31,604 nt of DNA from a virus. Shown in pieces: positions 18,628-28,148 of this stretch (position 1 is the first letter of the stretch; each line of letters opens with the position of its first letter). The translations under genes and the position numbers were made by a program. Where the stretch lies: positions 1-31,604 of the IMG/VR virus record IMGVR_UViG_3300036770_002247. One strand, written 5' to 3'. Below the pieces are notes generated by a model. It ran no database searches and was not told the origin of the DNA. It was given only the letters and a program-made list of their open reading frames with translations.

Positions 18628-19253
18628 GTCGCGGTCTTACAGCTGGCGCACTTGCTCAGATCGCAGCGACCGAGCTGCAACCGATTCTTTTATTTCAAGC
18701 TGAGTTTCAGTCGGGCACGATTTATATCTGGAATGGTATTGGCGATCTAAGTTGGAATTCGCAGACCTGGACAGGTGTTGGCACTTTTATGAGCTTTTCT
18801 GACATTGAGGAAAGCACAGAAGTGAAGGCAGTTGGTGCGACCATTACGCTCAACGGCATTCCTAGCGATTTAGTGTCAACAGCTTTATCTGATGTCCGAC
18901 AAAACAAGCCTGGCAAGCTCTATCTTGGCTTTTTATCTTCGGGCTCTATCGTTTCTGATCCTTATCTCATCTTCGCTGGCAGGCTGGATGTTGTTCATCT
19001 CGATGAGTCATCAGAAGGATCAACAATCTCTTTGCAATACGAATCGAGGCTGATTGATCTTTCTAGGCCCAGAGTTTTTCGATATACCCCAGAAGATCAA
19101 GAGCGAGAGTTTGCAGGCGATTTAGGCATGGAGTTTGTCCCAGCATTGCAAGACAAAAAGGTGACCTGGGGACGTGTAAGCAATGCTGTTCCATCAGGAG
19201 CTGGGTCAGGTGGCGCACCTCCTGTCGATGAACAACAAACAACAGGGATGTAA
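18624..19253 (+). CDS. Minor tail protein (tail tip component)
   Basis: The 209-aa product starts RGLTAGALAQIAATELQPIL, then LFQAEFQSGTIYIWNGIGDL, and includes GVGTFMSFSDIEESTEVKA, a block common in DUF2163-like and gpL-region tail proteins. FAGRLDVVHLDE and SLQYESRLIDLSRPR follow. These proteins build the cone joining the distal tail ring to the central fibre. The C-terminal GAGSGGAPP stretch is flexible. The stop overlaps the J-like start (TAATG). Confidence 0.7.
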   Translation: MSRGLTAGALAQIAATELQPILLFQAEFQSGTIYIWNGIGDLSWNSQTWTGVGTFMSFSDIEESTEVKAVGATITLNGIPSDLVSTALSDVRQNKPGKLYLGFLSSGSIVSDPYLIFAGRLDVVHLDESSEGSTISLQYESRLIDLSRPRVFRYTPEDQEREFAGDLGMEFVPALQDKKVTWGRVSNAVPSGAGSGGAPPVDEQQTTGM

Positions 19254-22200
19254 TGGGCTTTCTTGAAATCATCTTAGCAATTGCGAGCATGGCTGCTGGA
19301 GAGGCGGCTGTTAGTTATTTCGCGATAACTTCTGCTTGGCAAGCTGCTGCGGTTCGCTTTGCTGTCGCTCTTGCGATCTCGACTGCATCTAGAAACTTAG
19401 TTACTCGCAAATCATTCCAAAGCGAAGCTGAGGGCAGGATCATCACGACTAAGGAGCCTTTGGCGGCCGCTAAAGTGATTTATGGTCGGGTGAGAGTCGG
19501 CGGCACGATTGTCTACATGGAGACCACTAGCAGCTCCAACGAATATTTGCACATGGTGATCGTCCTTGCTGGTCACGAGGTTCACGCGATTGATGACATC
19601 TACTTTGATGATGAGCTCGTTCCTTTAGACGGATCTGGCAATGCAACTGGCACTTTTGCTGATCTTGTAAGAATCAAGAAAGCTCTCGGCACTGATGCAC
19701 AAACAGCCTTTAGCGATCTGGTGTCTGAGTCTGATTCGCTTTGGACAAGCAATCATCGACTGAGAGGTCGCGCTGCAATCTATGTGAGGCTCAAATACAA
19801 CCAGGACAAGTTTCCCAACGGTGTCCCTAATATCACAGCCATTGTCAGAGGCAAGAAGGTTTACGACCCAAGGACCACGACGACTGCTTACAGCACAAAT
19901 CCTGCTCTGATCGTTGCTGATTACCTTTGCAACACCAGATATGGACTTGGCGCGACTTATGCCACAGAGATCGACGAAACAGCTCTGACAGCTGCTGCAA
20001 ACATTTGCGACCAGGATGTCACGCTCGATGCTGGCGGCACTGAAGATCGCTACACAGCAAACGGATCATTTGACACGACTGAAGTGCCAGAGAAGGTGCT
20101 TGCTGAGCTTTGCAGCGCAATGGCAGGTCATGTCACCTATGTTGGCGGCAAATGGTCGATTCTTGCAGGAGCCTATAGATCACCATCAATCACGCTTGAC
20201 GAAGATGACTTGCGAGCAGGCTTTAAGGTGCAAACCTTGGTTTCTCGCAGAGATCAATTCAACTCAGTCAAAGGTGTTTTTAGCTCACCAGACAACCTTT
20301 GGCAGCCAACGGATTTCCCGTCCTATTCTTCTGCTACTTTTGTATCAGAGGACAATAGCGAGACGGTTTACAGAGATATTTCGCTCCCCTATACGACCAG
20401 TGCAGCCACAGCGCAGCGTTTAGCGAAGATTGAGCTTTACAAGGCTCGTGAGCAGCTGTCGATGACTTTGCCTTGCAAGCTCACTGCTTATGGGGTCCAA
20501 GTTGGTGATGTGGTCAATGTAACCAATACCAGGATGGGCTGGTCTGCCAAGGCTTTCGAGGTTGTAGGCACAAAACTTGTTTTTGATCTCGATGCTGGCT
20601 TTGGTGTTGATCTTGATCTTAGAGAAACGAATTCAAGCATCTACTCTTGGGATGAAGCAACCGAAGAGCAAGAGTTTGTGCAGGCTCCGAATACCAACTT
20701 GCCAAACCCAAGATCTGTTCCTGCTCCTACAGCTCTGACGCTCACTGAGGTCAAAGTTCTTCTCAATGATGGAACCCTTGCCAATGGCATTCGAGTTAGT
20801 TGGACAGCTCCGAGCGATTATTTTGTCAAGGAATATGAGGTCCAATACATCAGGACTGGTGGGGCGATCGACTATGGGCTCATCAGCCAGGCTGCAACTT
20901 CCTCACAGTCATTTGGCGACATCACTGCAAGCGCAACCGCTACGTTGAATTATGGGTCGATCTCAGATGTCATCATTTCTGGCGAGCCTGAATTCAACAG
21001 CGGCACGACAACAACAACGCAGCTGACGATCGCTCCAGTCATCCAGGCTGTCGAATATACGGTCAAGGTCCGATCGGTTTCTCATTTGGCAGTGAGATCT
21101 GCCTTTGTGCAAGACACGATCACCACAGGCGGCGATACAACGGCTCCTGCTGCACCATCACTTATCACGGCAACCGGCAAGATCAGGTCAATTGTTTTGA
21201 ATTGGGAAAACCCATCTGATCTTGATTTTGATTCGGTGGAAGTATTTAGAAACACGACCAACAGCGTTAATTCTGCGACCAAGGTTGCTCAGATTGCTGC
21301 TGACAATTGGACCGACACAAATCTTGATAGTGATGTCACGCGCTATTACTGGCTGCGATCGGTCGACATGTCTGGCAATCGCTCGGCATTCAGCTCTTCA
21401 GTCAATGCAACGACTCAAACGATTGTTTCTGCTGATTTCAGTGCTGAGGTGCTTAATCTCTTTGCTGAGGCTGGGGCTTATGGGATTGAGCCTGTCGCAT
21501 CATTGCCAGCAAGTGGAGATTTTGTCGGGCAGATCAAGTTTGATACGACTGCGGTTGCTCTCTATCGTTGGACGGGATCAGCCTGGGACGATGACATTTT
21601 TAGCATCACGACAGGATCTGTTACCGCAAGTGCTTTTGCTGCTGGCATCGAACCTATTTCAGTCGTCAGCTCTTTGCCAAGCGCATCAGGTTACACAGGC
21701 CCGAAGGTTGTTTTTCTGACCACAGATGGCAAGCTCTATCGTTATGCTTCTGGGGCGTGGACAACTGCGGTGCTCACCTCGGATCTTTCTGGGACGCTTG
21801 CATCTTCGCAATTCAGCAACAGCCTGAGGCCTGTCGAGGTTGTTTCGTCATTACCAAGCAGCTCCAACTTCCAGGGGCGCACAGTTTTTCTCACGACCGA
21901 CAACAAGATATATCGGCATGATGGGACAAACTGGACTGCTGCGGTCCCAGCTTCAGATCTATCAGGCACTGTTTCTGATGCACAGATCGCTGGCCTGGCG
22001 GCTGCGAAGATCACCGGCACACTAACCAATTCCCAGATCGCTGATGTCGCAGCTGCAAAGATCACTGGATCTATTGTCGGAACCCAGATCACAGATGGCG
22101 CAATCTCAACAGCAAAGCTCGCAGCAGGATCGGTGACTACTGCCAAAGTTGCAGCTGGAGCAATTTCAGCAGATGAGATTGCAGCCAACGCAATCACAGC

Positions 22201-23896
22201 GGTCAAGATTTCTTCGGGTGCAGTGGAAACGGCAAAGATTGCAGCAGGAGCGATCGAGGCTAGCAAGATTGCATCCAGTGCGATCACGACCGACAAACTT
22301 GCAGCCAATGCGGTGACGACCGAAAAGATTACAAGCAATGCGATCACCACAGGGCTTCTGGCTGCGGGGGCTGTGACTTCGGACATTCTTGCAAGCAACT
22401 CGATCATCGCTGGCAAGATTGCTGCTGGGGCTATCAACTCATCGAGCTTGTTTGTAAGTGGGGTGATTACCTCTTCTCATATCCAGGCAGGCACGATACA
22501 AGGCGACAGGATTGCTGCTAATACGATCACTGGTGGTCTTATTGCTGCAAGCGGGATTATCACCTCGGCTGCACAGATCAATGATGCGGTGGTGACGAAT
22601 GCAAAAGTAACCAGCTTGTATTCGAGCGATTACAACGGACCTATTCCACCATCGAGCAGCAACTTTGGGACTGCTGGTTGGTATCTCGACAAGTCGGGCA
22701 GTTTCTACGGCAATTCGGTCTATCTGCGAGGTCAGCTTGTTAGCGGCACTTCAGGAGCGCAGCGAGTAGAAATCAACAAGACACTCGCAAACAAGCTAGC
22801 GGTCTACAACAGCTCAAACACGCTTATCGGGGCCATAGGTGGCTCTGGAGTCTTTGGCGATGCAGTCATTCAGTCTTATCCGCAAATCGTCAGCGGATCG
22901 TTTCAGGGTGCTTATATCGAGACTCCGAGTTATACGGGCTCGACGAATTATGGGTATGGTCTTTATGCAAGGACAGCCGATGGAGAGGTTGATTCCTATG
23001 TTAATTACTGGGACAGCTCTATCGGTTTAAGAGCTGCGGTTGCAGGCACTATTAGTGTTGGCGCAGCTCTCAGATCTGGAGTGCATGGCTATCGTGACTC
23101 TAGCTATTCCGCTGGTGGTCGTTTTTATGATGGCAGCGCTGGAACCCTTGTCACGCTTGCTGATAGCAGTGGCTATGCCTTAAACATTCGATCTGGGCAA
23201 CTAAGGTATGGATCAACCACCATACAAGCTCCAAGCGGATCATCAGGCGATTTCTTGCGTGGCAATGGTTCTTATAGTGCCTTATCAGCCTCAGACATTC
23301 CGAATATTTCCGGCAATAAGATTACATCTGGTTTGGTTGACTGGGGTTATGTCGCAGGCTTTAAGAACGGATCGAGTCAAGTCAGAGGCATTGCAGGCAC
23401 TGGATCAACAGCGACTTTACAAGCGTTTTTAGGATCAGAGACTACCGACACGACCTCTGGGAACATGGTTTATTACACCGAGGCTGGGGGCTACTTCGGT
23501 GGGGTCTATATAAACCAACGTGGAACAACAGCGACCTGGAGCGCACTTTATTCAGACGCTCGAATGAAGGATGTGCTTGGTCAAATACCGATTGCAGACC
23601 CTTTAGAAACGCTGAAAAAAATTGGCAATCCTGTGATCTGGAAATGGAACCATGAGGCATCTAGCGAGGTCTGGGGCTATACAGCACAGCAGATCGGACA
23701 AGGGCTTCCTGATGCTGTGATAGAGGCTCCAAGAACACCGAGAGGCGACTATCAGCTCGTGCCTGGCACAGAAGAACGGGTGCTGACTTTTGATAACACC
23801 AAGTTTCAGATGCTTAAGGACATGGCTTTGATTTCGCTTATTGAGAAGATCGAGATGCTTGAGGCTAAGATCGCTGCGCTGGAGGCTAGATCATGA
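19253..23896 (+). CDS. J-like central tail fibre/tip protein with C-terminal S74 chaperone
   Basis: At 1547 aa this is the largest gene. Residues 1-480 match the J core (AEGRIITTKEPLAAAKVIYG, then FPNGVPNITAIVRG). About 483-725 holds two fibronectin-III-like domains (SVPAPTALTL, TTAPAAPSLITATG). About 747-912 has three related ~55-aa repeats (VSSLPS, FLTTD, LYR.DG..W). About 913-1063 is an ITxxxIAAGAI-type repeat fibre. The end is an S74 intramolecular chaperone: catalytic pair S1434 and K1439 in SDARMK, then a coiled-coil tail. Self-cleavage before S1434 would release about 114 residues. In lambda, J ends in the receptor-binding tip; here a folded fibre replaces it. Confidence 0.88.
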   Translation: MGFLEIILAIASMAAGEAAVSYFAITSAWQAAAVRFAVALAISTASRNLVTRKSFQSEAEGRIITTKEPLAAAKVIYGRVRVGGTIVYMETTSSSNEYLHMVIVLAGHEVHAIDDIYFDDELVPLDGSGNATGTFADLVRIKKALGTDAQTAFSDLVSESDSLWTSNHRLRGRAAIYVRLKYNQDKFPNGVPNITAIVRGKKVYDPRTTTTAYSTNPALIVADYLCNTRYGLGATYATEIDETALTAAANICDQDVTLDAGGTEDRYTANGSFDTTEVPEKVLAELCSAMAGHVTYVGGKWSILAGAYRSPSITLDEDDLRAGFKVQTLVSRRDQFNSVKGVFSSPDNLWQPTDFPSYSSATFVSEDNSETVYRDISLPYTTSAATAQRLAKIELYKAREQLSMTLPCKLTAYGVQVGDVVNVTNTRMGWSAKAFEVVGTKLVFDLDAGFGVDLDLRETNSSIYSWDEATEEQEFVQAPNTNLPNPRSVPAPTALTLTEVKVLLNDGTLANGIRVSWTAPSDYFVKEYEVQYIRTGGAIDYGLISQAATSSQSFGDITASATATLNYGSISDVIISGEPEFNSGTTTTTQLTIAPVIQAVEYTVKVRSVSHLAVRSAFVQDTITTGGDTTAPAAPSLITATGKIRSIVLNWENPSDLDFDSVEVFRNTTNSVNSATKVAQIAADNWTDTNLDSDVTRYYWLRSVDMSGNRSAFSSSVNATTQTIVSADFSAEVLNLFAEAGAYGIEPVASLPASGDFVGQIKFDTTAVALYRWTGSAWDDDIFSITTGSVTASAFAAGIEPISVVSSLPSASGYTGPKVVFLTTDGKLYRYASGAWTTAVLTSDLSGTLASSQFSNSLRPVEVVSSLPSSSNFQGRTVFLTTDNKIYRHDGTNWTAAVPASDLSGTVSDAQIAGLAAAKITGTLTNSQIADVAAAKITGSIVGTQITDGAISTAKLAAGSVTTAKVAAGAISADEIAANAITAVKISSGAVETAKIAAGAIEASKIASSAITTDKLAANAVTTEKITSNAITTGLLAAGAVTSDILASNSIIAGKIAAGAINSSSLFVSGVITSSHIQAGTIQGDRIAANTITGGLIAASGIITSAAQINDAVVTNAKVTSLYSSDYNGPIPPSSSNFGTAGWYLDKSGSFYGNSVYLRGQLVSGTSGAQRVEINKTLANKLAVYNSSNTLIGAIGGSGVFGDAVIQSYPQIVSGSFQGAYIETPSYTGSTNYGYGLYARTADGEVDSYVNYWDSSIGLRAAVAGTISVGAALRSGVHGYRDSSYSAGGRFYDGSAGTLVTLADSSGYALNIRSGQLRYGSTTIQAPSGSSGDFLRGNGSYSALSASDIPNISGNKITSGLVDWGYVAGFKNGSSQVRGIAGTGSTATLQAFLGSETTDTTSGNMVYYTEAGGYFGGVYINQRGTTATWSALYSDARMKDVLGQIPIADPLETLKKIGNPVIWKWNHEASSEVWGYTAQQIGQGLPDAVIEAPRTPRGDYQLVPGTEERVLTFDNTKFQMLKDMALISLIEKIEMLEAKIAALEARS
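21990..22440 (+). repeat. Short degenerate repeats encoding a fibre stalk
   Basis: Inside the J-like gene about 150 codons repeat a unit of roughly 10-16 residues around the pattern AAGAI-(S/T)-x-x-KI, with variants such as AANAITAVKISSGA and SNAITTGLLAAGA. Such repeats form trimeric beta-helical fibre stalks in many phage tail fibres. The DNA repeats have drifted, so this is a coding repeat and not a CRISPR or satellite array. Confidence 0.6.
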
Positions 23897-24174
23897 GCTG
23901 TACCTGGTCGATCACAAAAATGGTTTCTGATCCAGATGAGCATGATCGTCCTAATGTGATTAGAGAAGTGACGATCTCTTGCACGAGTGACGATGAATCA
24001 TTCTTCACGACTGTGATGTTAGATCCACCATCTCAAAGTTTTGTCGATTTCAATCTGGTCACACAAGCATTGGTCTGGCAATGGGTCTACGCAAAGATTT
24101 CCAAAGAAGATATAGAGGCTATTGTTTTGCAGCGCATTGCAGATCGACAAACTGTTTCACAAATGCCGTGGTAA
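23893..24174 (+). CDS. Small conserved-type protein after the tail fibre (93 aa)
   Basis: Coupled to the J-like gene by an ATGA overlap. It begins with a strand-rich part (CTWSITKMVSDPD, then NVIREVTISCTSDDESFFTT) and ends with a helix-turn of the pattern LVWQWVYAKISKEDIEAIVL, closing in QMPW. Phages often carry proteins of this shape next to fibre genes; function is unknown. It may be a fibre chaperone or virion component, by position only. Confidence 0.6.
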   Translation: MSCTWSITKMVSDPDEHDRPNVIREVTISCTSDDESFFTTVMLDPPSQSFVDFNLVTQALVWQWVYAKISKEDIEAIVLQRIADRQTVSQMPW

Positions 24175-24183
24175 GGAAATGAC

Positions 24184-24912
24184 ATGACACAAGCAGTACA
24201 ACTCAGAAAAGGCACGACCTCCGAACATTCGACCTTTACGGGTTTGCAGGCAGAGGCAACTGTCGACACGACTAAGAAAACCATCGTAGTCCATGATGGG
24301 TCGACTGCTGGCGGCATTCCTTTATCCAGAGAGGATCTGAGCAATGCGAATCCTAGCAATCTGACTACGATTGTTGGGGCTGATACGGCATCTGGCGATC
24401 TCTTTGTTGTTTATGACGTTTCAGCGAGCGCGTTTAAGAAGATCACCAGGGCTGAGCTGAACAATGCAATGGAGCAAGATGCACTAGCTTCTGTTGCGAT
24501 CACTGGCGGCAGCATCAACGGCACGACGATTGGCGCAAGCACTGCAAGCACAGGAGCTTTCACCACCTTATCTGCCTCAAGCACAGTTAGCGGTAATGGA
24601 TTCAGCACTTATCTAGCCAGCCCACCAACTATTGGCGGCACTAGTCCAGGACTTATAACTGGGACAACAATAACAGCGACAAATCAATTTTCTGGGCCAC
24701 ATAATGGATCTGTTGGCGCAACCTCGCCGTCGAGCGGAATATTTACCTCATTGGCATCTTTAAGTGTTTTACAAAATGTCCAAACAATTGCATCATCATC
24801 ATCCATTTCAGCTGGCAACAATGGGCTTTCAGTTGGGCCTGTGACTATTTCTGGTGGGGCTGTTTTTACAGTTCCAAGTGCAAGTATTTGGAAAATTTTA
24901 GAAGGAGTTTGA
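24184..24912 (+). CDS. Fibre protein with Mtd-type N-terminal (beta-prism) domain
   Basis: The first ~52 residues match, from memory, the N-terminal domain of BPP-1 Mtd: AVQLRKGTTSEHSTFTG, then KKTIVVHDGSTAGGIPLSR. In Mtd this domain forms a trimeric beta-prism. After it the protein departs from Mtd and continues with fibre repeats (ITGGSINGTTIGASTASTGA) and a Ser/Gly/Thr-rich C-terminus ending VFTVPSASIWKILEG. The remaining Mtd domains are in the next gene, 1 nt downstream, so the two likely form one tip. A Shine-Dalgarno (AAGGA) precedes the ATG. Confidence 0.8.
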   Translation: MTQAVQLRKGTTSEHSTFTGLQAEATVDTTKKTIVVHDGSTAGGIPLSREDLSNANPSNLTTIVGADTASGDLFVVYDVSASAFKKITRAELNNAMEQDALASVAITGGSINGTTIGASTASTGAFTTLSASSTVSGNGFSTYLASPPTIGGTSPGLITGTTITATNQFSGPHNGSVGATSPSSGIFTSLASLSVLQNVQTIASSSSISAGNNGLSVGPVTISGGAVFTVPSASIWKILEGV

Positions 24913-24913
24913 C

Positions 24914-25924
24914 ATGGCCTATGGCAAAGTGCTCGCAAATGCGACATCTGCAACCGGCGTATTTCGCAAAGCTGATCCCACAATCGTCGCATGGACCAAA
25001 ACTGGCGCATTTACAGCTACAACAGCGACTGAATTAACGATTGAGGTAAATGGTGAATCGCAAATCATTGCGTCTGGAACCTCGATCACGATGCCAGGTT
25101 CGGCCACGACAGGAACAGATTATGCAATCTGGGCAAAAACTGATGGCACATTGCAAGCAACAACCGATCACACATCTGCTCCGGCGACTGGTGCTAGAAA
25201 AGTCGGTGGGTTTCATTACGCGCCAGGCGGCAACGCAACAGGGACATCTGGCGGTAATACCACAGCAGGAATTAACGAATATTCTTTTTGGGACTTGAAA
25301 TTCAGGCCAGCTTGTAAAGATCCTCGCGGCATGACGCTAGTGGCTGGATGTTTTTGGTCTGATATCTATCTTTGCGGGGTCGATCACTATACAAACGGGA
25401 CGAGCAAATATAACGTCACGATCGCAGACGGTTCATCGCTGCCTAAGATTAGTGCAGCTTTTGGGGGCACAGGATCTAACTCTTATGCTGGCGGCACTTG
25501 GTTTGCTTTCAATGAAATTATGCGCGGAGCTGGTAAGCGACTGCCAAGATATACAGAGTTTGCTGCTTTAGCCTATGGCACGACCGAGGCTTCTTCGCTC
25601 GGATCTGATCCGACTACAACAGGGGTCAGCAGCGGCACGTACACAAGCAAATGGGGCGTGATGCAATCCAGTGGAGTTATGTGGCAGTGGTCAGATGACT
25701 TTATTGCAAGTGGCGATGGGACTGGCGGCTGGCAAACTGGACTTACAGAAACCAGAGGCAATATTTATACTTACAATTCCTCGGCACGCGCTGGGCTCTT
25801 GGGCGGCGGCTGGGCCGACGGGTCGGGTTCCGGTTCTCGTTGCTCGAACTGGACCTACGATCCATCGCTCTCGGCCAGCCCCATCGGGGCTCGCGGCGTG
25901 TGTGACCACCTGATTCTTGATTAA
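24914..25924 (+). CDS. mtd: Major tropism determinant (Mtd-like), DGR target with C-type lectin domain
   Basis: The 336-aa product matches Mtd from its second domain onward: an Ig-like part (TGTDYAIW, ARKVGGFHYAPGGNA) and then a C-type-lectin fold (EYSFWDLKFRPA, DPRGMTLVAGCFW, GTSKYNVTIADG, GKRLPRYTEFAALAYGTTEA) ending in the invariant GARGVCDHLIL. The last 130 bp carry the variable repeat. The eleven codons that differ from the template are residues 295, 299, 301, 302, 305, 314, 315, 319, 321, 322 and 323; in Mtd the equivalent positions form the receptor-binding surface. Mtd's N-terminal domain is encoded by the preceding gene. Confidence 0.93.
   Translation: MAYGKVLANATSATGVFRKADPTIVAWTKTGAFTATTATELTIEVNGESQIIASGTSITMPGSATTGTDYAIWAKTDGTLQATTDHTSAPATGARKVGGFHYAPGGNATGTSGGNTTAGINEYSFWDLKFRPACKDPRGMTLVAGCFWSDIYLCGVDHYTNGTSKYNVTIADGSSLPKISAAFGGTGSNSYAGGTWFAFNEIMRGAGKRLPRYTEFAALAYGTTEASSLGSDPTTTGVSSGTYTSKWGVMQSSGVMWQWSDDFIASGDGTGGWQTGLTETRGNIYTYNSSARAGLLGGGWADGSGSGSRCSNWTYDPSLSASPIGARGVCDHLILD
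25789..25906 (+). repeat. DGR variable repeat (VR)
   Basis: 118 bp at the 3' end of the Mtd-like gene align without a gap to 26323-26440 (constant offset 534). They differ at 16 positions: 25796, 25808, 25809, 25814, 25815, 25817, 25827, 25854, 25856, 25868, 25869, 25874, 25875, 25878, 25880 and 25881. Every one faces an adenine in the template; none of the 92 other template bases differs. The last 25 bp (25882-25906, G/C-rich) are identical and should contain the initiation-of-mutagenic-homing site. 16 of 26 template adenines are changed, so retrohoming has been active. Confidence 0.97.
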
Positions 25925-25941
25925 GTGGCGAAAGCCACGTT
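25923..25941 (+). other. GAAA-tetraloop DNA hairpin after the VR
   Basis: GTGGC (25925-25929), GAAA loop (25930-25933), GCCAC (25934-25938); two further A-T pairs form if G25939 is bulged. It sits on the stop codon of the Mtd-like gene, just after the VR. In BPP-1 a hairpin or cruciform with a GRNA tetraloop in this position is needed for efficient target recognition, and GAAA fits GRNA. No T-tract follows, so it is not a terminator. Confidence 0.8.
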
Positions 25942-25944
25942 GTC

Positions 25945-26319
25945 ATGGAACCAATCTCAGAGGCGACACAATGTTACGATCAGATGGCTATTATCGAAAA
26001 GTACGAAAGGGTCATAGCCTATCTATATCCAATTGCTCAATCGATGCCTCGTCGACATGGGATAGCCAGAGACAAGTTTTTGAATTGTCTTTTTTCGGTT
26101 CCAGATCTTTTATATCAAGCGGGGAAATCAAATCAGATAAGCAAGATATATGCTGCAGATGCTGGATTGGCTCATCTGCGGTTTTGGATGCGATTTCTTT
26201 TTACGATCAAAAGCATGACGCAACATCAGCTGCAAACGGCTCAGGCTGTTTTGGCAGAAGTTGGGGCGATGCTTGGAGGTTGGATCAAAAGAAGAAGAGC
26301 GCAGGGGCATACTGGGTAA
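25945..26319 (+). CDS. avd: DGR accessory variability protein Avd
   Basis: The 124-aa product is close, from memory, to BPP-1 Avd along its whole length: a start of the MEPISEATQCYDQM type, then YERVIAYLYPIAQSMPRRHG, AGKSNQISKIYAADAG, LRFWMRFL and TAQAVLAEVGAMLGGWI. Avd is a four-helix-bundle pentamer with a basic outer surface that binds the reverse transcriptase and the template RNA and is needed for mutagenic cDNA synthesis. The start at 25945 is set by this match, as the ribosome site is weak. It lies between VR and TR as in BPP-1, and its stop is 3 nt before the TR. Confidence 0.93.
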   Translation: MEPISEATQCYDQMAIIEKYERVIAYLYPIAQSMPRRHGIARDKFLNCLFSVPDLLYQAGKSNQISKIYAADAGLAHLRFWMRFLFTIKSMTQHQLQTAQAVLAEVGAMLGGWIKRRRAQGHTG

Positions 26320-26322
26320 AAA

Positions 26323-26440
26323 CGCTGGGATCTTGGGCGGCAACTGGAACAACGGGTCGGATTCCGGTTCTCGTTGCTCGAACTGGAACAACGATCCATC
26401 GAACTCGAACAACAACATCGGGGCTCGCGGCGTGTGTGAC
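26323..26440 (+). repeat. DGR template repeat (TR)
   Basis: The 118-bp non-coding master copy of the VR. In the Mtd frame it would read ten AAC codons, at exactly the sites that vary (nine of ten are altered in the VR, plus ATC and GAT). AAC at variable sites is the hallmark of DGR templates, because adenine mutagenesis of AAC can reach many amino acids but never a stop. Beyond 26440 the match ends: the next base is G here and C in the VR, so template and target are told apart by their 3' flanks. Confidence 0.97.
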
Positions 26441-26585
26441 GACATCGATTTATCGCTTCGTAAAGGCTTACGCATTACGAGCAGGCCTGTCAAAATGTGG
26501 TCAGCCAGCAGTGTCCTCCTTCGGGGAATACATCAAGAGGTCTGGCATAACGTCAAGTAGGCAATCCAAAGACGGGGCTAGCACA
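26441..26585 (+). ncRNA. Putative spacer part of the DGR template RNA
   Basis: 145 nt between TR and reverse transcriptase with no convincing gene. In BPP-1 the template RNA continues through a spacer of about this size, which the RT-Avd complex binds and from which cDNA is self-primed. Some short inverted segments are present (for example CGTAAAGGCTTACG near 26459-26472), but I cannot fold it. The RT frame happens to be open through the spacer and TR, but those residues have no family match. Confidence 0.55.
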
Positions 26586-27578
26586 ATGCCAAAACGACAC
26601 AGGCATTTGATTGAAAAAATTGCGGACATCCAGAATTTGAGATCTGCATATATCAATACGGCACGATCCAAACGAATGACTCATGGATATTTAGAGTTTA
26701 AGGAATACGCCGAATCAAATTTATCATTGATTCAATCAGAGCTTTTGGATGGTGGCTATAAGATTGGTCCTTATAGAGAGTTTATTATTTATGAGCCTAA
26801 GGCGCGATTGATTTCTGCTCTTGATTTCAAAGACAGGTTGGTGCAACACGCACTTTGTAATGTTATTGGACCGATCTTCGAAAAAGCAATGCTTCCGCAA
26901 ACCTTTGCATGTCGTGTTGGACTTGGCACACATGCAGGAGTCAAATATTTGCAAGCGGAAATGCGTCGAATTGATGCAACGCACTTTTTGAAAACTGATT
27001 TCTCAAAATATTTCCCATCCATAGATCATAAAATCTTGCATGAGATGATTGATCGTAAAATTGACTGCGAAAAGACCCTGAAGATTCTAAGAGAGATTAT
27101 TCCAATCAATGGAAAGGGCATCCCGATTGGAAGTTTAACTTCGCAGCTTTTTGCAAATGTTTATGGCGGTTCTGTTGATCGTTATATTCACTTTGAATTA
27201 AAACATCGAGCATGGGCAAGATACATGGATGATATTGTGATTCTTGGGCATGACGAAAAAGAGCTGAGAAGTTCGTTTTCTAAGATACAAATCTTTTCAA
27301 AAGAAAAGTTACTATTAGCAATAAGCAAGTGGCAATCTGGGCCTATCAGCAGAGGCATCAACTTTCTTGGGTATCGTATCTGGCCCACGCACAAGCTCTT
27401 GAGGAAAGATTCTGTAATAAGAGCAAAACAAAAGATTTCAAAGTTTGTTCGTCTTGGCGATCAAGACTCATTAAGAAAATTCATTGCTTCATGGTCTGGT
27501 CATGCTCGTTGGGCAGACACGCACAACCTTTTTAATTGGATGGAGAATCGACATGGCATCGTTTGTCATCAACAGTAG
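26586..27578 (+). CDS. brt: DGR reverse transcriptase
   Basis: 330 aa from ATG 26586, chosen because MPKRHRHLIEKI corresponds to the BPP-1 RT start. RT blocks in order: YEPKARLISALDFKDRLVQH (68-87), FLKTDFSKYFPSID with D138, GIPIGSLTSQLFANVYGG (178-195), RYMDDIVIL with the catalytic YMDD at 213-216, then FLGYRIWPTHKLLRK. The SQ at 186-187 replaces the usual SP of other RTs and marks the DGR clade, linked to low fidelity at adenines. The gene is visibly A/T-richer than the tail genes (about 37-40% G+C in two lines counted by hand, against 48% in one tail line), consistent with cassette transfer. Confidence 0.96.
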   Translation: MPKRHRHLIEKIADIQNLRSAYINTARSKRMTHGYLEFKEYAESNLSLIQSELLDGGYKIGPYREFIIYEPKARLISALDFKDRLVQHALCNVIGPIFEKAMLPQTFACRVGLGTHAGVKYLQAEMRRIDATHFLKTDFSKYFPSIDHKILHEMIDRKIDCEKTLKILREIIPINGKGIPIGSLTSQLFANVYGGSVDRYIHFELKHRAWARYMDDIVILGHDEKELRSSFSKIQIFSKEKLLLAISKWQSGPISRGINFLGYRIWPTHKLLRKDSVIRAKQKISKFVRLGDQDSLRKFIASWSGHARWADTHNLFNWMENRHGIVCHQQ

Positions 27579-27792
27579 GGCTGATCTTGATGCAATTGCA
27601 GGGACGGTAGAACATCAACGATTTATGCAGGCTTTGCGCGGGTCAATGATTCGCAAGATCAATGTTCAGACGTATCCTGATGGATACAACCAGCCTGGCT
27701 ATAGTGGACCGACATTGGAACCAGTTTGGCAAGATCAGGAAGATCTATCTACGATCGAGCAATTTGGTTTTACCAAAGAAGATTTTGAGTGA
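27553..27792 (+). CDS. Small phage protein after the RT (79 aa)
   Basis: ATG 27553 has GGAGA upstream and overlaps the RT end by 26 nt. The product is acidic: VINSRADLDAIAGTVEHQRF, then MQALRGSMIRKINVQTYPDG, and a C-terminal EDLSTIEQFGFTKEDFE. I recall similar short proteins after fibre genes in many phages, without a known function. Its first part could hold a helix, its second part a Pro/Tyr-rich loop. Probably not part of the DGR machinery. Confidence 0.7.
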   Translation: MASFVINSRADLDAIAGTVEHQRFMQALRGSMIRKINVQTYPDGYNQPGYSGPTLEPVWQDQEDLSTIEQFGFTKEDFE

Positions 27793-27799
27793 GGATGAA

Positions 27800-27964
27800 A
27801 TGTCACGCGATGAGGCTTTAGCAGCAATCGAAAAGCACGAGGCTTTATGTGCCTTGCAATATGCTCAGATAAACGCTCGACTAAAACGCTTGGAGCAGAT
27901 TCTGCTTGGTGCTGGCGGTGCAATTATCCTGCTGCTGGTCAACCTGGTGCTAAAGCTGCATTGA
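27800..27964 (+). CDS. Small membrane protein, XhlA-like architecture (lysis region)
   Basis: 54 aa from ATG 27800, preceded by GAGG. An N-terminal charged helix or coiled coil (RDEALAAIEKHEALCALQYA, then QINARLKRLEQIL) is followed by one membrane segment (GAGGAIILLLVNLVL) at the C-terminus. This layout is that of XhlA-type lysis accessory proteins. It heads the lysis cluster with a second single-span protein and a holin-like gene. Confidence 0.6.
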   Translation: MSRDEALAAIEKHEALCALQYAQINARLKRLEQILLGAGGAIILLLVNLVLKLH

Positions 27965-27965
27965 C

Positions 27966-28148
27966 GTGGAAGCGATCACCGAAGCTGTCTCGAAATTGTG
28001 GTACTTAGGGGCGGCAGTGGTCGGCATTGCTGCTTATGCAGTGACCTTAAAAGTCAGGCTCGATTACTTAGAAAAGGGCTATGACAAGCAGATCACAGCT
28101 CTCTGGGAAAAGGTCAACGAGCTGACTGAAAAACTAGGAATGCGATGA
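27966..28148 (+). CDS. Single-span membrane protein with coiled-coil end (60 aa)
   Basis: Starts at GTG 27966, right after the previous stop. A membrane helix (WYLGAAVVGIAAYAVTL, about 12-28) is followed by a charged coiled coil (RLDYLEKGYDKQITALWEKV, then NELTEKLG). It might be a holin partner or an inner-membrane spanin; no outer-membrane lipoprotein partner is seen. ATGA-type overlap links it to the next gene. Confidence 0.55.
   Translation: MEAITEAVSKLWYLGAAVVGIAAYAVTLKVRLDYLEKGYDKQITALWEKVNELTEKLGMR

Follow-up and report, generated by a model that had tools for sequence, protein, structure and literature searches.

The window analysed here is the whole of a 31,604-nucleotide stretch of viral DNA (IMG/VR record IMGVR_UViG_3300036770_002247, positions 1 to 31,604), which profile searches identify as a 31.6 kb bacterial virus of lambda-like siphophage organisation, with genes for terminase, portal, major head protein, tape measure, distal tail protein, J-like fibre and endolysin. 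On the 3′ side of the J gene lie, in order, a DUF7936 gene, two genes referred to here as gene 1 and gene 2, and then the avd gene, template repeat (TR) and reverse transcriptase (RT) of a diversity-generating retroelement (DGR). The features of this region are as follows.

19253..23896, + strand: central tail fibre or J-like host-specificity protein, 1547 aa (PHROG central tail fiber J, 4e-87; Pfam Phage-tail_3, 9e-7)
23893..24174, + strand: small DUF7936 protein, 93 aa, in the interval between J and gene 1 (Pfam PF25590, 7e-9)
24184..24912, + strand: gene 1, fibre segment, 242 aa (Pfam Mtd_N, AlphaFold2 confidence, cap HMM)
24184..24333, + strand: part of gene 1 coding for the Mtd_N prism (Pfam Mtd_N; alignment with BPP-1 Mtd)
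24796..24900, + strand: C-terminal cap motif of gene 1, SSSISAGNNGLSVGPVTISGGAVFTVPSASIWKIL (cap HMM; common to the fibre genes 5′ of other free-standing Mtd tips)
24898..24906, + strand: Shine-Dalgarno sequence of gene 2, AGAAGGAG, within the 3′ end of gene 1 (sequence 5′ of the ATG)
24914..25924, + strand: gene 2, prism-less Mtd and DGR target, 336 aa (Pfam, PHROG, BPP-1 Mtd alignment, structure match)
25789..25911, + strand: variable repeat (VR) at the 3′ end of gene 2 (TR/VR alignment)
25925..25938, + strand: hairpin GTGGC-GAAA-GCCAC, just after the gene 2 stop (sequence; PMC3240598)
25945..26319, + strand: avd, DGR accessory protein (Pfam bAvd, 3e-28; PHROG Avd, 1e-23)
26323..26445, + strand: TR (TR/VR alignment)
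26586..27578, + strand: DGR reverse transcriptase, 330 aa (PHROG reverse transcriptase, 3e-115; Pfam RVT_1, 5e-15)
24861..28090, + strand: block near-identical to contig L004 except in the VR, an apparent unit of tip and DGR exchange (flanks diverged)

Genes 1 and 2 are read in different frames, and a single base separates the TGA stop of the first from the ATG of the second. The Shine-Dalgarno sequence of gene 2 is strong, belongs to gene 2 itself and stands at a distance from the ATG that is normal for initiation. Further upstream, the C-terminus of the J-like protein is possibly a degenerate S74 chaperone-like domain (Peptidase_S74, 8e-4, under the Pfam cut-off).

Residues 12-336 of gene 2 align with residues 52-381 of the major tropism determinant (Mtd) of phage BPP-1 (2e-99), and the protein is 53% identical over its whole length to the Mtd structure 1yu4. 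Pfam places the Ig-like second domain of Mtd (mtd_2nd) at residues 27-127 (64 bits; cut-off 24.6), and the C-terminus has the C-type-lectin fold that bears the VR at codons about 294-333. When an AlphaFold2 model of the protein (mean pLDDT 67) was compared with the PDB by Foldseek, the best matches were five Mtd crystal structures, which were also the sole strong ones (E about 1e-30, TM 0.75). Pfam finds no Mtd_N domain in gene 2, and just about 10 residues precede the Ig domain. Gene 2 is presumed to encode a receptor-binding tip of the Mtd family, composed of an Ig-like and a C-type-lectin domain. Its closest relative, in an Akkermansiaceae MAG (L145), is 78% identical, and the N-terminus to which the unit is fused there is an unrelated fibre without a prism; an avd and an RT accompany it (L145:5617-6970), and its reading frame is broken near the VR by error or decay.

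The VR of gene 2 differs from the TR at 18 of 123 positions, and 17 of these 18 mismatches fall at TR adenines (binomial p 2e-10, with 28 A in 123 nt); read in the frame of gene 2, the TR has many AAC codons (NWNNGSDSGSRCSNWNNDPSNSNNN). It has been reported that BPP-1 needs a GRNA-loop hairpin 3′ of its VR, and that the stems of a published set of phage DGR hairpins are 7-10 bp long (PMC3240598). The hairpin in the window matches the GRNA-loop type, but its stem of 5 bp is below that published range. Taken together, the adenine signature of TR and VR, the Avd, the RT and the hairpin mark gene 2 as the target of a canonical DGR. Among the window and contigs L003 and L004, the VR shows many changes and the preceding 800 nt or so of gene 2 are identical; such VR differences between near-identical phages point, if indirectly, to DGR activity.

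Gene 1 is made up of modules: an Mtd_N prism (aa 1-50), a hairpin and helix (about 64-102), degenerate fibre repeats (about 103-193) in two or three copies (ITGGSINGTTIGASTASTGAFTTLSAS ... HNGSVGATSPSSGIFTSLAS), and a C-terminal cap (about 205-239). The prism is recognised at residues 5-41 by Pfam Mtd_N (PF18454; E 2e-14; 53 bits, cut-off 26), and the start of BPP-1 Mtd aligns with residues 1-55 (5.6e-14). The initial annotation had proposed that the prism and the variable domain are carried by separate proteins, and the profile searches bear this out, with Mtd_N at the N-terminus of gene 1 and mtd_2nd and the lectin in gene 2; the fibre repeats that it described are also present, and the cap had escaped it. 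Because the cap motif ends the gene, gene 1 looks complete in itself. Proteins that end in the cap match PHROG profiles of tail-fibre C-ends, which put the motif at the very end of further tail-fibre proteins; a tblastn search of phage records with the motif gave no match. The AlphaFold2 model of gene 1, built from an alignment from which the BPP-1 row had been left out, is poor overall (pTM 0.26), as would be expected for a single chain of an intertwined trimer, with confidence of 78-89 for regions 70-100 and 200-240.

Judged by where it occurs, Mtd_N is a generic phage-fibre domain and no hallmark of Mtd. Among 52 loci fetched with gene 1, Mtd is present only in the window’s own kin (L082-L084), and the other 48 gene 1-related contigs, those that encode a prism by itself among them, have neither Mtd nor a DGR RT in the stretch examined. 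The domain is found in named phages as well, for example Synechococcus phages S-TIP37 and S-SSM7. In a sister phage, L085, which has no Mtd, the counterpart of gene 1 residues 1-139 is 84% identical and belongs to a fibre of 685 aa; that fibre is long and has its own distal domain, whereas gene 1 in the window family is short and ends in the cap where a tip follows. The prism of gene 1 shares 92% identity with its L085 counterpart and 71-77% with those of several other non-Mtd fibres, and its identity to Mtd-fused prisms (60-67%) is lower than to these nearest non-Mtd fibres. Single modules are also encountered: several phages (L093-L097, L111-L113) have the prism alone as a protein of 67-68 aa, and a protein of 42 aa (L014:660-788) consists of the cap alone, each of which looks like a free building block. 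At L105 (346-731 and following), Mtd_N ORFs occur in tandem, one of 67 aa and then a fibre of 722 aa.

The Ig+lectin unit was surveyed by four scans of viral contigs with gene 2-type queries, to which named phages were added, and 120 lineages with a complete start were compared. Between 8 and 835 aa (median 122) precede the Ig domain in these lineages. Only five of these lineages (L020, L076, L290, L024 and BPP-1) carry prism and unit on one ORF, a rarity which indicates that the prism does not define the Mtd family, and one lineage, the window’s, has it on the upstream gene. Free-standing tips, defined as those with 20 aa or less before the Ig domain, are found in 12 of the 120 lineages, and on a tree of the Ig+lectin part this state requires at least nine changes, which implies repeated gains or losses. 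The other free-standing units (L074, L146, L014, L040, L060, L038, L044, L067, L081, L159 and L315) resemble gene 2 in having about 8-18 aa before the Ig+lectin part; unlike the window lineage (window, L002-L005), none of them follows a fibre gene with Mtd_N. Arrays of Mtd genes were also noticed: one phage (L048, L049, L051 and in part L050) has three Mtd-like genes in tandem, each full-length at 385-387 aa, with the DGR RT absent within the fetched stretch, and another locus (L060:4993-6960) has a tandem pair whose first member lies in several broken frames and whose second is intact and followed by avd, TR and RT.

For the cap, the nine free-standing lineages whose sequence extends 2 kb or more ahead of the tip were compared with 91 lineages with longer N-termini. 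A cap-ended fibre gene was found within 3 kb upstream in seven of the nine, the window’s included, and in four of the 91. Fisher’s test gives a p of 7e-7 for this association if kinship is ignored, but a kinship-aware test is not significant, its six independent pairs comprising three for, none against and three undecided. The cap gene lies 1-17 nt upstream of the tip in the window, L003 and L074, but in four of the seven cap lineages it is separated from the tip by more than 1 kb and by other genes; the free-standing tips of L038 and L044 have no recognisable cap gene. The pattern is consistent with tips that dock on cap-ended fibre segments, a link that we regard as tentative. At one locus (L315:1749-3124), two successive cap-ended fibre genes precede a free-standing Mtd tip, as if segments were chained.

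We lean, with a confidence somewhat above even, towards the reading that gene 1 encodes a modular fibre segment with its own cap and gene 2 a prism-less DGR tip that is probably mounted on it. Gene 1 would then be a complete, separately folded fibre segment, which most likely trimerises. Its N-terminal prism, of a kind that would be a common attachment domain of phage fibres, would join the virion or a preceding piece of fibre, a role drawn from the one presumed for the BPP-1 prism (PMC10743442), and its shaft would end in its own trimeric cap, which would carry the gene 2 trimer distally. Gene 2 is by its sequence the tip, an Mtd-family unit of Ig-like and C-type-lectin domains that would form a trimer; its 3′ VR is hypermutated by the adjacent avd-TR-RT, and its lectin face would be diversified accordingly by the DGR. 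The contact that we infer would be made between the gene 1 cap and the ten or so residues at the start of gene 2, and would replace the direct contact of prism and fibre proposed for BPP-1. A bolder version, possible but doubtful in our judgement, has gene 1 as a dedicated adaptor, its cap as a general socket, and the tip and DGR as a drop-in cassette, with crossovers at the boundary of socket and tip; any phage with a cap-ended fibre could then take up a self-mutating tip, and hypervariable tips would circulate between phages whose fibres differ.

Genes 1 and 2 may instead encode independent neighbouring tail proteins, gene 1 a side fibre held by its prism and gene 2 a protein on J or the baseplate, a reading that we think unlikely, if by no means negligible. 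It accommodates the sister phage L085, in which a gene 1-type fibre occurs with no Mtd, the free-standing tips whose cap gene is absent or distant, and the usual clustering of tail genes regardless of contacts. It accounts less well for the 1-nt gap with coupled translation, which is retained in L003, a different phage (its J protein is 73% identical to the window’s) in which the N-terminal part of gene 1 (residues 1-113) is about 62% identical, the sequence of the junction differs and the stop is TAA, and yet the gap is again 1 nt. It also leaves unexplained that gene 1 of the window family is short and ends in the cap exactly where the tip follows, and that the short N-terminus of gene 2 holds no recognisable attachment domain.

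The initial annotation had described the locus as one Mtd split over two genes. Mtd domains do lie on neighbouring genes, with the prism and the Ig+lectin unit in the same order as in BPP-1 Mtd, which is the arrangement that a true fission would leave if fibre repeats and a stop had been inserted between the prism and the Ig domain of a one-piece protein; the further step, that a single Mtd was divided in two, we consider improbable. The gene 1 prism is 71-92% identical to its nearest counterparts in non-Mtd fibres and clearly less so to the Mtd-fused ones, the start of gene 1 is kept in L085, where there is no Mtd, the stretches examined of the 48 gene 1-related contigs outside the window’s kin lack Mtd as well, the closest kin of gene 2 (L145) is fused to an N-terminus that is not a prism, and a same-ORF prism is confined to the five Mtd lineages named above.

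Programmed +1 frameshifting at GTT TGA C, which would yield some fused protein, is more improbable still. Gene 2 is in the +1 frame, this frame is open just before the gene 2 ATG, and the TGA-C stop context stands behind a Shine-Dalgarno-like AAGGAG, which we take to be loosely similar to the prfB frameshift site. The site is not conserved, however, since the corresponding end in L003 reads GGG GAT TAA T ATG; the Shine-Dalgarno spacing is that of ordinary initiation at the gene 2 ATG; and a complete cap motif already ends gene 1. That a sequencing or assembly error split a single gene can be dismissed, given that the break is kept in L002, L004 and L005, which are contigs of other metagenomes, and with another stop codon in L003, and that restoring the frame at one point would not remove the cap and the fibre repeats from between the prism and the Ig domain. 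The break between genes 1 and 2 is no artefact and, to judge by these relatives, is not recent; a scan for relatives by the DUF7936 gene returned the same three contigs only.

The segment from gene 2 onward also has a history that differs from that of its surroundings. Between the window and L004 there are no mismatches from 24861 to the VR and about five outside the VR up to about 28090, whereas the left flank is about 2.5% and the right flank about 20% different. The window and L003 are near-totally identical outside the VR from 24974 into avd, and gene 1 of L003 is largely unrelated to the window’s except at the gene 1 ends. Both left breakpoints, against L004 and against L003, lie no more than about 60 bp from the point where gene 1 gives way to gene 2. 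A near-identical block of tip and DGR between diverged flanks suggests a recent cassette exchange or sweep, and the cassette appears to be exchanged between phages by crossovers near the boundary of the two genes, although a chimeric assembly could account for the recombinant L003. Since tip and DGR are contiguous from the gene boundary, the cassette could pass between phages with different fibres without the remaking of a protein fusion, an idea that the recombination patterns support, if short of proof. The interchangeable tip put forward in the initial annotation thus finds support, as a unit of evolution, in the lineage census and in these recombination patterns. In L003 (7400-7563), gene 2 and avd are kept, while the TR and most of the RT, all but about the last 50 residues, are lost, so the diversifier appears to have been disabled recently with the tip left intact.

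The likeness to BPP-1 is extensive. In both systems an Ig-like and C-lectin target is followed by avd, TR and RT (mtd-avd-TR-brt in BPP-1), the VR at the 3′ end of the target carries adenine-specific changes, and a GRNA-loop hairpin comes after it. BPP-1 also has a fibre-like gene, bbp9, just upstream of mtd, so that tip and fibre are already separate proteins there. The systems differ in that the BPP-1 prism, presumed to be an attachment domain (PMC10743442), is on the tip protein (381 aa), whereas in the window a prism opens the fibre gene that precedes the tip; bbp9 differs at its N-terminus, and its C-end is ANIGLADLGGIA and not the cap. The proteins annotated in GenBank as ‘mtd’ in Synechococcus phages S-CBS1 and S-CBS3 are like gene 2 in matching mtd_2nd and not Mtd_N (that of S-CBS1 has only 353 aa), but they are 45% or less identical to gene 2 and lie after the head genes, and the annotation of the 4 kb that flank them on each side includes no RT. 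Fibres headed by Mtd_N, such as STIP37_40 of Synechococcus phage S-TIP37 and the L085 fibre, share the prism type of gene 1 at varied length; unlike gene 1, they are not followed by an Mtd tip gene.

The initial annotation knew of no description of such a design. DGR targets are known to be modular, with the C-lectin domain fused to many others (PMC8144416), and the DGR-diversified lectin targets nd4_tgt2 and nd12_tgt2 have been reported without the N-terminal prism of BPP-1 Mtd; these also lack the beta-sandwich domain, unlike gene 2, and the available text makes no mention of a prism-bearing neighbour gene (PMC10743442). Modular and prism-less targets are thus not new in themselves. A literature search found no relevant description of split or adaptor Mtd designs, and as far as our tools reach, what appears to be new is a prism-headed, cap-ended fibre directly 5′ of a prism-less DGR tip, together with free-standing tips that recur across lineages and are tentatively linked to the cap, and the breakpoints near the gene boundary.

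The arrangement in the window is one among many phage ways of mounting the same exchangeable tip. The Ig+lectin unit of Mtd emerges as a tip module that is mounted variously, fused to very different N-termini or made as a separate protein, and the prism known from BPP-1 as a generic attachment domain. Should the cap prove to be a genuine socket, it would provide a testable rule for the movement of DGR tips between phages, and a natural precedent for swaps of receptor-binding tips without fusions.
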